Assembly: GCA_019246215.1 (NCBI GenBank)
Contig: JAFAQT010000357.1
Span: forward strand, 1 to 34,631
Length of the DNA: 34,631 nt
From: Verrucomicrobiota bacterium
GTDB taxonomy: Bacteria; Verrucomicrobiota; Verrucomicrobiia; Chthoniobacterales; JAFAMB01
Direction of reading: 5' to 3'
Within the stretch, counting starts at the first letter, position 1, and each line of letters opens with the position of its first letter. Below, one piece after another: positions 1 to 3,215 of this stretch. The position numbers were made by a program, and so were the translations under genes. The notes below the pieces were generated by a model. That model was not told where the DNA came from. It was given only the letters and a program-made list of their open reading frames with translations, and made no database searches.

Positions 1-214
1 AGAGCCCGCAGCGAATTTACCAACCCAGATCATTCCTGCGGCCGCAACCCAACAACAATGGTTGGAATCGCAACGCCCCAACATTAAGGCAGCCCTCGAG
101 CAGAGCCATGGGAAAATTTACGGAAAAGGTGGCGCTGCCGAACTGCTGGGATTACGTCCGACCACTTTGTCATCGCGCATCGCGGCGCTCGGGATGAAAC
201 GTAGGGCCATCTAG
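1..214 (+). CDS. Sigma-54 dependent transcriptional activator, C-terminal fragment (Fis-type HTH)
   Basis: Only the last 70 codons lie in the window. Reading from base 2, the frame is open to a TAG at 212-214. The final 45 residues have the shape of the Fis-type helix-turn-helix that closes bacterial enhancer-binding proteins: an IKAALEQSHGKIYGKGGAAE helix pair, then LLGLRPTTLSSRIAALGMKR. The phrase RPTTLSSRI-ALGM is very close to the recognition helix of FhlA/NorR-like regulators. Such proteins activate RNA polymerase carrying sigma-54 through an AAA+ domain, which would lie upstream of this window. The signal or receiver domain cannot be seen, so the regulated pathway is unknown. The 20 residues before the HTH (rich in P, A, T and Q) look like an interdomain linker. 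Confidence 0.85.
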   Translation, partial: EPAANLPTQIIPAAATQQQWLESQRPNIKAALEQSHGKIYGKGGAAELLGLRPTTLSSRIAALGMKRRAI

Positions 215-1138: not shown

Positions 1139-1351
1139 TCAGTCTCTGACTACAAAGTGAGGCGGCCAGTCCAACCGACGACCATCGCGGTGCGCCTGCA
1201 GTAATGCGTCCGTGCAGAGCTGAAAAAAATGGCTTCGGTCCTTGAACCCAAAATCGCGAACGATTCGCTCTAATGTATCTAAATGTTCGAGGCGAACGCT
1301 CGTCGTGCGTTTACCATGTGTGTTTTGGGTTACCTCTGGTTCTGTATTCAT
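1139..1351 (-). CDS. Small ribbon-helix-helix (CopG/Arc-like) DNA-binding protein
   Basis: A 70-residue protein. Residues 14-22 (KRTTSVRLE) form a plausible beta strand, followed by helix A (HLDTLERIVRDFG) and helix B (DRSHFFQLCTDALLQAH). This is the strand-helix-helix order of ribbon-helix-helix repressors, with the usual hydrophobic spacing and a conserved-looking S after the turn. Such proteins are often antitoxins or autoregulators. No toxin-like partner gene lies on either side, so a toxin-antitoxin role is not supported. The start is the ATG at 1349-1351; no good Shine-Dalgarno sequence precedes it. The gene stands alone in a gene-poor stretch and could be an orphan regulator or a relic. 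Confidence 0.55.
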   Translation of the reverse strand: MNTEPEVTQNTHGKRTTSVRLEHLDTLERIVRDFGFKDRSHFFQLCTDALLQAHRDGRRLDWPPHFVVRD

Positions 1352-1460: not shown

Positions 1461-1466
1461 TATAAT
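1461..1466 (+). promoter_or_regulatory. Possible -10 element (TATAAT) for a plus-strand transcript
   Basis: A perfect TATAAT sits 190 bases ahead of a strong terminator, with no plus-strand gene in between. No convincing TTGACA-like -35 box is found 16-18 bases upstream (the hexamer there is GAGCGT), so it is only a candidate promoter for the RNA at about 1473-1687. Confidence 0.3.
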
Positions 1467-1472
1467 CTTACT

Positions 1473-1687
1473 TGTATCTTGTTAAGTTCCTGGTTTGCTG
1501 CCGAACAGATGTTCGTTCCATGCCATTACTGATCCTAACTGCACACCTTCTAAACGTTGGCGTTTAGCCCCTTCCGTGCTTGATGGCGAGCTACAGTCAG
1601 CGGGCAAGGGTTACGAGCAGTTAATCGGCCAAAAATCGAATACATTTAGAGAAAACCCTCCGCTGGGCGATCCGCAGAGGTTTTTTT
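1473..1687 (+). ncRNA. Candidate small RNA of about 215 nt
   Basis: This stretch has no convincing coding frame but does have the parts of a small RNA gene: TATAAT at 1461-1466, two compact hairpins and a terminator. Hairpin 1 pairs CGAAC (1502-1506) with GTTCG (1511-1515) across the loop AGAT. Hairpin 2 pairs CTAAACG (1550-1556) with CGTTTAG (1561-1567) across TTGG, a perfect 7-bp stem with a 4-base loop. The transcript would end in the T run at 1681-1687. I do not recognise it as 6S, tmRNA, RNase P or SRP RNA. One alternative is that the terminator closes a longer read-through transcript. A 69-codon frame (1495-1704) overlaps it but has no family motif and runs through the terminator. Confidence 0.35.
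1657..1687 (+). terminator. Rho-independent terminator
   Basis: CCTC (1657-1660) pairs with GAGG (1677-1680). After one C-A mismatch, GC (1662-1663) pairs with GC (1674-1675), and seven T residues follow directly at 1681-1687. Because no plus-strand gene ends nearby, it points to a non-coding transcript upstream. Confidence 0.6.
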
Positions 1688-1688
1688 C

Positions 1689-1877
1689 GCCCCGGAGCGG
1701 GTGATCGGGGGCCACGAGTGCGAGGTAAGGTCATGAGAATCTCACGAGAAGGAAATTCTCACCGGAGAGAGCAGACCTGTTGCTCTGCCTCACGTCTGTC
1801 GATGCAACTCGCAATGGAGGCAGCAGCGGCGGATCGGTGAACCTTGACCGTCGCGAGTTGGTCGAGGAAGCTGCGGA
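1689..1877 (+). promoter_or_regulatory. Structured leader in front of cca
   Basis: Between the terminator and the cca start codon lie three inverted repeats. TGAGAAT (1734-1740) pairs with ATTCTCA (1755-1761). AGAGCA (1768-1773) pairs with TGCTCT (1781-1786). The long-range pair is CAACTCGC (1805-1812) with GCGAGTTG (1853-1860), 8 bp. The last arm ends just before the purine-rich GAGGAAG that serves as ribosome binding site for the ATG at 1878. This arrangement could control translation of cca, or the stretch could be a separate structured RNA. No known riboswitch core was recognised. Confidence 0.35.
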
Positions 1878-3215
1878 ATGAGCCTGGCACTCCTCCGAGA
1901 CTCGAAGCTATATGAAGTTGCGGCGTCTATCGTAAGAAAGCTGCGAGAGCACGGATATGTCGCTTATTTTGCTGGCGGCTGTGTCCGGGATGCGCTCCAG
2001 GACATTCCACCGAAGGACATCGACATTGTAACCAGTGCAAAGCCTGACCAGGTACAACGGCTTTTTGAAAGGACAATTCCTGTGGGAATTCAATTTGGGG
2101 TGGTCCTCGTCCTTGCCGATGATATGGAAGTTGAAGTGGCGACCTTTCGTTCTGATGGGGTCTATCTGGATGGAAGGCACCCTTCAGAAATTCAGTTTAG
2201 CACGCCGGAACGAGACGCCATGCGGAGAGATTTCACTATCAATGGGATGTTTTATGATCCCGCAAACGGCAAAGTCATCGATTATGTGAATGGTCGAGAG
2301 GACCTGTCTCACAAACTGATCCGGGCGATCGGTTCGGCCTCCAAACGATTTGCAGAGGATCGTTTGAGGATGCTTCGAGCAATCCGGTTAGCTTCGACTC
2401 TGGGGTTCGAGATTGAGTCCGGCACGTGGTCGGCAATCAAGGCAGAAGCTCGGGAGATTTCGATGGTGAGTCCTGAACGAATCCGAGACGAGCTGCTCAA
2501 GATCCTGGTCAATCCGCATCGCCTCCGTGGCTTCGATCTGCTTGATAAGAGCGGAATTTTGGCGGTGATCCTTCCTGAGATCGAAGCGCTTAAAGGATGC
2601 GAACAGCCGGCACGATTCCATCCTGAAGGGGATGTGTTTGTCCATACTCGATTGATGCTGGGCTTGCTGGCGCCGGAAACCAGCGAAGCGCAGGTACTTG
2701 CCGTGCTGCTCCATGATATCGGCAAGCCACCGACTCGATCCTTTGATGCGGTTGACCAGAGGATTCGATTCAACGGGCACGACAAAGCGGGTGCAGAGAT
2801 GGCCGAAGCGGTGATGACGCGCCTTAGATTCCCGCGACATGAAATCGATCTGGTGATCGATGCTGTGCGCAATCATATGATTTTCAAGGATGTCAAGCAG
2901 ATGCGTCCAGCCAAGCTGCGACGTTTCATGGCGCGTCCGCATTTTGGAATTGAGCTGGAGCTGCATCGGCTAGATTGCGTCGGCAGTCATGGTGATTTGG
3001 AGAATTACCAGTTTCTCGTCGACAAAGCGTTGGAGTTTTCGGAGGAACCGCTGATCCCAGCCCCTTTGGTTCGCGGCGATGATCTGATATCGATGGGGTT
3101 GAAGCCAGGGCCAAAGATCGGCGAGCTGCTGGAGAGAGTCCAAACTGCTCAGCTAGAAGGCGAGGTCAAGACGCGAGCGGAGGCCATAGAATTGTTGAAG
3201 ACGATGATAAAATAG
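1878..3215 (+). CDS. cca: CCA tRNA nucleotidyltransferase / poly(A) polymerase family protein with HD domain
   Basis: 445 residues. It builds or repairs the 3'-CCA end of tRNAs from CTP and ATP; the family also includes poly(A) polymerases. Seen in the sequence: the nucleotidyltransferase signature GGCVRD at 33-38, the metal-binding pair D47 and D49 (KDIDI), RRDFTINGM at 116-124, and the nucleotide-selecting region EDRLRMLRAIR at 160-170. A C-terminal HD phosphohydrolase domain has LLHDIGK at 277-283. The length fits the HD-containing class II enzymes. The ATG is preceded by GAGGAAG at a normal distance. Class II CCA enzymes and poly(A) polymerases cannot be separated by eye, so the exact activity is slightly open. 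A degenerate repeat begins right at the stop codon. Confidence 0.92.
   Translation: MSLALLRDSKLYEVAASIVRKLREHGYVAYFAGGCVRDALQDIPPKDIDIVTSAKPDQVQRLFERTIPVGIQFGVVLVLADDMEVEVATFRSDGVYLDGRHPSEIQFSTPERDAMRRDFTINGMFYDPANGKVIDYVNGREDLSHKLIRAIGSASKRFAEDRLRMLRAIRLASTLGFEIESGTWSAIKAEAREISMVSPERIRDELLKILVNPHRLRGFDLLDKSGILAVILPEIEALKGCEQPARFHPEGDVFVHTRLMLGLLAPETSEAQVLAVLLHDIGKPPTRSFDAVDQRIRFNGHDKAGAEMAEAVMTRLRFPRHEIDLVIDAVRNHMIFKDVKQMRPAKLRRFMARPHFGIELELHRLDCVGSHGDLENYQFLVDKALEFSEEPLIPAPLVRGDDLISMGLKPGPKIGELLERVQTAQLEGEVKTRAEAIELLKTMIK

Follow-up and report, generated by a model that had tools for sequence, protein, structure and literature searches.

A leader RNA upstream of cca in a family of Verrucomicrobiota probably evolved as a ribosome-mediated transcription attenuator

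The stretch of 34,631 nucleotides that was analysed here (positions 1 to 34,631 of contig JAFAQT010000357.1, Verrucomicrobiota assembly GCA_019246215.1), referred to as the window, raises the question whether a structured, terminator-ended segment near its left end acts on its own or belongs to a gene. The initial annotation had read this segment as an independently made regulatory RNA of about 215 nt closed by an orphan terminator. The 1.4 kb ahead of the terminator are indeed devoid of plus-strand genes, but the designation as an orphan is not supported; the plus-strand gene cca, which starts 190 bp past the terminator, had gone unweighed. The cca gene (1878..3215, +) is intact and encodes a tRNA nucleotidyltransferase of 445 aa with the Pfam domains PolyA_pol, PolyA_pol_RNAbd, HD and tRNA_NucTran2_2; the best NCBIfam match of the deduced protein is CCA tRNA nucleotidyltransferase, with a score under the model cut-off. 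The following gene in the window specifies an alpha-amylase, and genes of Trp or Cys biosynthesis are not evident downstream. Regulation of cca, the product of which is an essential enzyme for the synthesis and repair of tRNA ends, is little studied in bacteria, and a review on Bacillus states that cca expression under stress 'has not received much attention' (PMC5372718).

Taken alone, the elements of the window are individually modest with respect to the terminator scan and the shuffle z-scores. The intrinsic terminator (1656..1687, +) with its seven T residues (1681-1687) is present, but its stem CCTCCGC/GCAGAGG carries the internal mismatch C1661.A1676, because of which it was not listed by the mechanical scan; the segment 1645-1690 has a folding energy of -15.6 kcal/mol (z -2.1). 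The TATAAT hexamer (1461..1466, +) is found in the sequence as claimed, but it lacks a -35-like partner at sigma-70 spacing, is not listed in the promoter scan and varies among relatives, where AATAAT or AAAATT occupies this position and where it is not conserved in G002; as a possible -10 element of a leader promoter it is weakly indicated. The two hairpins that the initial annotation placed in front of the terminator, CGAAC-AGAT-GTTCG with 5 bp (1502-1515) and CTAAACG-TTGG-CGTTTAG with 7 bp (1550-1567), do exist, but each reaches a z-score of only -1.7 against shuffles and is confined to this genome, the same stretch being folded otherwise in the relatives. The 219-nt RNA of the window as a whole has a stability near that of shuffled sequences (z -0.9).

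The genetic context of the segment was compared in the eight genomes of the family that cover the junction, which belong to four genera (G000, the window genome, and G001, G002, G004, G005, G008, G009 and G010). All eight share the order of a small divergent ORF, a structured leader, an intrinsic terminator, an ORF of about 55 aa and cca, and in each of them the terminator lies between the leader start and cca on the same strand. The short ORF follows the terminator within about 50-100 nt and precedes cca on the same strand; it is intact in the relatives and present as a broken remnant in the window (1733..1877, +). The respective proteins of 50-56 aa were found in all seven relatives (L051, L052, L054, L055, L056, L058 and L200) and gave no match in Pfam or NCBIfam. 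When the remaining loci retrieved were searched for terminator-type attenuators ahead of cca, only the family members G004 (record JAFAXJ010000508, Verrucomicrobiota) and G008 and one doubtful match, L074, came up. The predicted leader transcript of the window (1473..1687, +, with a putative 5' end) has 75-76% identity to regions directly upstream of cca in G001 and G002, both of which belong to the genus of the window genome. The structured RNA of about 215 nt with a terminator at its end, as described in the initial annotation, is conserved in the relatives, and the segment represents a genuine cis-regulatory RNA. The supposed free-standing small RNA is most likely the 5' leader of cca, and gene order points to cca as most likely the gene that this leader regulates.

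A search for partners of the 5' half of the terminator revealed an alternative pairing. The best duplex partner in the window is strand 2 (TCAGCGGGCAAGGGTT; 1597..1612, +), which would form the 5' strand of an antiterminator with strand 3 (AACCCTCCGCTG; 1654..1665, +), the latter being common to antiterminator and terminator; the duplex has an energy of -19.6 kcal/mol and a joint probability of energy and site of 0.002. In all eight genomes the best partner of the terminator 5' half lies at one site, with its 3' end 23-38 nt upstream of the terminator, and the joint probabilities of energy and site per genome, estimated from dinucleotide shuffles, range from 0.000 to 0.052, with G004 as the weakest case (p 0.05). 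The terminator stem itself is perfect or near-perfect in the relatives. Strand 2 varies between genera (TCAGCGG-GCRA-GGGT, GGCGGT-A-GGGT and GCGGTG-A-GG) yet stays complementary to strand 3, the strand sequences of the individual genomes being as different as TCAGCGG..GGGT, GGCGGTAGGGT and GCGGTGAGG. When minimum-energy folds of the RNA left free by the ribosome were computed with a ribosome placed at the Trp/Cys codons of the leader frame described below and with RNA polymerase positioned before strand 4, strands 2 and 3 were paired in all seven intact copies, whereas a ribosome at the stop codon gave the terminator in all seven. In equilibrium folds of the full-length leaders the terminator beats the antiterminator in most cases, so that an attenuator model relies on kinetics, a reliance that is shared with other attenuators.

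Additionally, a leader frame of at least 33 codons is present in the seven relatives, and the last base of its stop codon is located 24-30 nt before the terminator. The putative leader peptides are MFSPSTIGDSNCIPSKRWCVRFAVLHGEVQSAGEGTSS in G001, MFVTNAITDHICTPPKLWCAVSAMFLGGQWSAGEVTSS in G002, VFRSLSMNHDADMPVKCWFVDVAIDAGDMSVRGAE in G004, MSVNLPKIKNRCWPRVNMCSRIDAVRLAWLLRR in G008, MFVNLTKYMIKQRCDFAQICGNMRADQLAWVAGR in G009 and MFVNLTKYMANQWCDFAQIRGNMRAHQLGWMAGR in G010, while the frame of G005 has the C-terminal end ...MPGSVWHDAIALCQCKRPLAVRTS; the leader starts are unsettled because G005, G008 and G009 offer further in-frame starts that would lengthen the frame, and the ribosome-binding sites ahead of the frame are weak. 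Cys codons occur in each of the seven frames, and Trp and Cys codons are adjacent in five of them, about 17-21 codons ahead of the stop. These candidate control codons are few, form no long run and do not constitute a strict pair, as G009 has CGG TGC at this site and G005 has W...C.C. Among shuffled leaders, a frame that ends at this place and spans 29 codons or more was observed in 6-10% of cases and one with adjacent Trp/Cys codons in 0.2-0.7%, values that are to be read with windows and codon choices set after inspection of the data and with genomes within a genus that are not independent. Both G001 and G002 contain an intact leader ORF of 38 codons, and between them the frame is kept with zero net indel though 21 of the 38 codons differ. 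All codon positions are affected by the differences (12/15/8 and 5/2/5), and purifying selection on the leader-peptide sequence is not visible from them; this pattern fits a leader peptide, without proving translation, and also a chance frame. A single plus-strand coding gene was considered for the segment as well and rejected, as indels break the window frame in the three-species alignment and a purifying pattern is absent.

The conserved layout, the alternative antiterminator and terminator pairings, the open frames and the positions of their stops are direct results of the computation. We infer in addition that the leader frame is translated and that stalling at its Cys/Trp codons provides the signal, and conclude, with a probability of roughly two in three, that the cca operon leader arose in evolution as a ribosome-mediated transcription attenuator. 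Such a device would consist of four competing strands, the first at the start of the leader-peptide frame, the second just before the stop codon, and the third and fourth as the arms of the terminator. With plentiful charged tRNAs, the ribosome would reach the stop codon and cover strand 2, whereupon strands 3 and 4 would pair and transcription would end at about 215 nt. A ribosome stalled at the Cys/Trp codons, which precede the stop by about 20 codons, would leave strand 2 free to pair with strand 3, and RNA polymerase would go on to transcribe the short ORF and cca. In an untranslated leader, strand 1 could pair with strand 2, and the terminator would form.

The fold of the upstream part of the leader bears on an alternative in which cca is attenuated without any translated peptide, strand 2 being controlled by the rod-like structure as a direct sensor of a ligand, of a tRNA or of a protein such as Cca itself or the small protein encoded nearby. 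In G002 the leader takes the form of a long rod that has a bubble at its centre and two hairpins at its apex, with a textbook terminator behind it, and this rod is very stable (z -8.55); the value for G001 is -3.3. Across the leaders of the window genome, G001 and G002, a block of 17 nt (TACGAGCAGTTAATCGG) is invariant, and the rod has 81% of its cells paired versus about 40% in slid versions. These pair counts favour the rod, but its covariation is weak among these three sequences (6 double-change pairs versus a shuffled mean of 4.1). The same three leaders were used to build the covariance model R1, which matches the structured part of the leader in the window, itself a model member, with 157 bits (1481..1650, +). 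Applied to a smaller search space, R1 also picked up a weaker copy in G004, at the corresponding position of the syntenic block (E 0.0015), and it misses G005, G008 and G010, so that the case for homology in these genomes is built on synteny, the terminator, the antiterminator and the ORF. The stability of the rod, the invariant block and the switch present in all eight genomes speak for a sensing rod, whereas the sequence of the rod is unconserved beyond the genus while frame and stop position persist, and neither a riboswitch nor a T-box family of Rfam matched at E values up to 10. We regard direct sensing by the rod as unlikely.

Appreciably less probable is an independent trans-acting RNA with an incidental placement upstream of cca, as originally proposed. 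The RNA is conserved, possesses its own terminator and has no Rfam match; the Rfam scan, run at gathering and at lax thresholds (E up to 10), returned no credible family for the leader, which agrees with the initial view that it matches no common RNA class; the G002 leader gave a sub-threshold match to His_leader (RF00514; 30.3 bits, E 0.003, gathering score 49). However, the R1 search of eleven family genomes at E values up to 1 yielded one copy each in G000, G001 and G002, always just upstream of cca on the same strand, and no further copies. Moreover, strand 2 complements the terminator in every genome, the frames end at a fixed place, and antiterminator and leader-peptide ORF lie in the same leader. 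A terminated leader of about 215 nt would also give a short northern band, so that the two readings cannot be told apart by a blot on its own.

A fixed terminator of the ordinary kind, insulating cca against transcription from upstream, with leader frame and antiterminator arising by chance, would be in keeping with the modest quality of nearly every part in the window; we consider it very improbable in view of the common pairing site in eight of eight genomes, the equal distance of the frame ends in seven of seven and the complementarity of strand 2 that is kept while its sequence changes. A divergent 6S RNA, suggested by the rod of about 200 nt with its central bubble and terminator in G002, deserves hardly any credence, as RF00013 does not match the leader at E values up to 10 and a separate 6S candidate exists elsewhere in the window genome and in most relatives. 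With this separate candidate at G000:C384:23737-23923 (L154; 24.5 bits against RF00013, cut-off 46.4), a 6S identity of the leader was rejected. The RF00013 scores of the relatives are stated in two ways, with four above the cut-off or with all family relatives below it, and Rfam represents the 6S RNA of this group poorly.

Within the attenuator reading, the nature of the signal was considered with regard to cca itself. The tRNA genes of G000, G001, G005 and G010 were inspected for an encoded CCA end. It is lacking in the tRNA-Trp genes of all four genomes and in the sole tRNA-Cys gene found; since 77 of the 122 tRNA genes overall (63%) lack it, this result discriminates little. The set is mixed in this respect, with the 3' CCA encoded in 45 of 122 genes, and a given isoacceptor may have it in one relative and lack it in another. 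A direct precedent for an action of Cca by way of a leader peptide exists in P. aeruginosa, where armZ expression rises when Cca is lost, via stalling on the leader peptide PA5471.1, the stall codons of which are read by tRNAs without a complete encoded CCA (PMC13041342). In Bacillus, a shorter tRNA-Cys species, probably without CCA, accumulates under mercury stress, and cca is located in an operon with bacillithiol genes (PMC5372718). A CCA-less tRNA-Cys or tRNA-Trp as the signal, which we infer as a possibility, is speculative and weakly supported. Tentatively, and at rather low probability, cca may be under direct feedback in this family, with a falling CCA-adding capacity or stress-damaged tRNA-Cys ends stalling the leader ribosome at Cys/Trp codons read by tRNAs without an encoded CCA and thereby switching cca on, a control that the window lineage would have lost.

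The copy of the window is most likely a decayed attenuator, with a partly broken leader. Alignment placed the remnant of the leader-peptide ORF at 1509..1624 (+), from ATG (1509-1511) to TAA (1622-1624); relative to G001 and G002, a deletion of 2 nt and an insertion of 1 nt have shifted its frame, and the former Trp-Cys codon pair (1558..1563, +), TGG TGT in those species, reads TGG CGT. Consequently, an intact leader-peptide ORF with control codons is missing from the window copy, where the old stop closes a frame of merely 13 codons, and deletions have broken the ORF ahead of the intact cca gene. With leader peptide, terminator stem and pre-cca ORF damaged, attenuation of cca expression is probably slight or absent, and the window copy would represent an example of a control element in decay. 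The frameshifts may also be assembly errors.

A comparison with known systems indicates that the leader most likely works like known attenuators and that the regulated gene, the phylum and a possible CCA feedback are new. The trp, his and leu leaders (Rfam His_leader RF00514) likewise consist of a leader ORF and strands 1-4 with mutually exclusive antiterminator and terminator and a stop codon beside strand 2, but they precede amino-acid biosynthesis genes, whereas the present leader precedes cca in Verrucomicrobiota and contains a Trp/Cys pair instead of a codon run. T-box leaders, which often precede tRNA-related genes, also switch between terminator and antiterminator. Theirs is a tRNA-linked switch, whereas the cca leader has a leader ORF and no T-box match in the Rfam scans. 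The PA5471.1-armZ system of P. aeruginosa (PMC13041342) is likewise based on leader-peptide attenuation with read-through raised by the absence of Cca, but its output is armZ/mexXY with Cca acting from elsewhere, while the output here would be cca itself. Leader peptides of actinobacterial cys operons (PMC1262725) are likewise short upstream ORFs with Cys codons, which differ in having Cys runs near the stop, no conserved intrinsic terminator and a different gene downstream. An attenuator of cca was not reported in the literature searched, a survey of premature terminators (PMC2965389) does not mention cca, and a full-text literature search returned no paper on leader-peptide attenuation in Verrucomicrobiota. 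If true, the attenuator before cca would represent a simple and testable sensor of tRNA-end integrity and would extend leader-peptide attenuation to Verrucomicrobiota.

Regarding the flanking region, positions 2-214 (+) of the window encode a Fis-type DNA-binding domain (HTH_8), the C-terminal part of a regulator whose gene is truncated, and no recognisable gene was found between 240 and 1100. The contigs G003:C455 (record JAFAJU010000354, Verrucomicrobiota), G007:C79, G009:C74 and G006:C212 terminate within or next to the block that extends from the divergent ORF to cca, which perhaps reflects assembly difficulty there. The divergent ORF of this syntenic block (1139..1351, -; 70 aa in the window) is conserved in the family, with deduced proteins of 69-75 aa that are 51-96% identical, and among 197 genomes of the order only 9, each of them from this family, contain it. 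The 70-aa protein gave no match in Pfam or NCBIfam and possibly resembles a small DNA-binding protein of the ribbon-helix-helix type.
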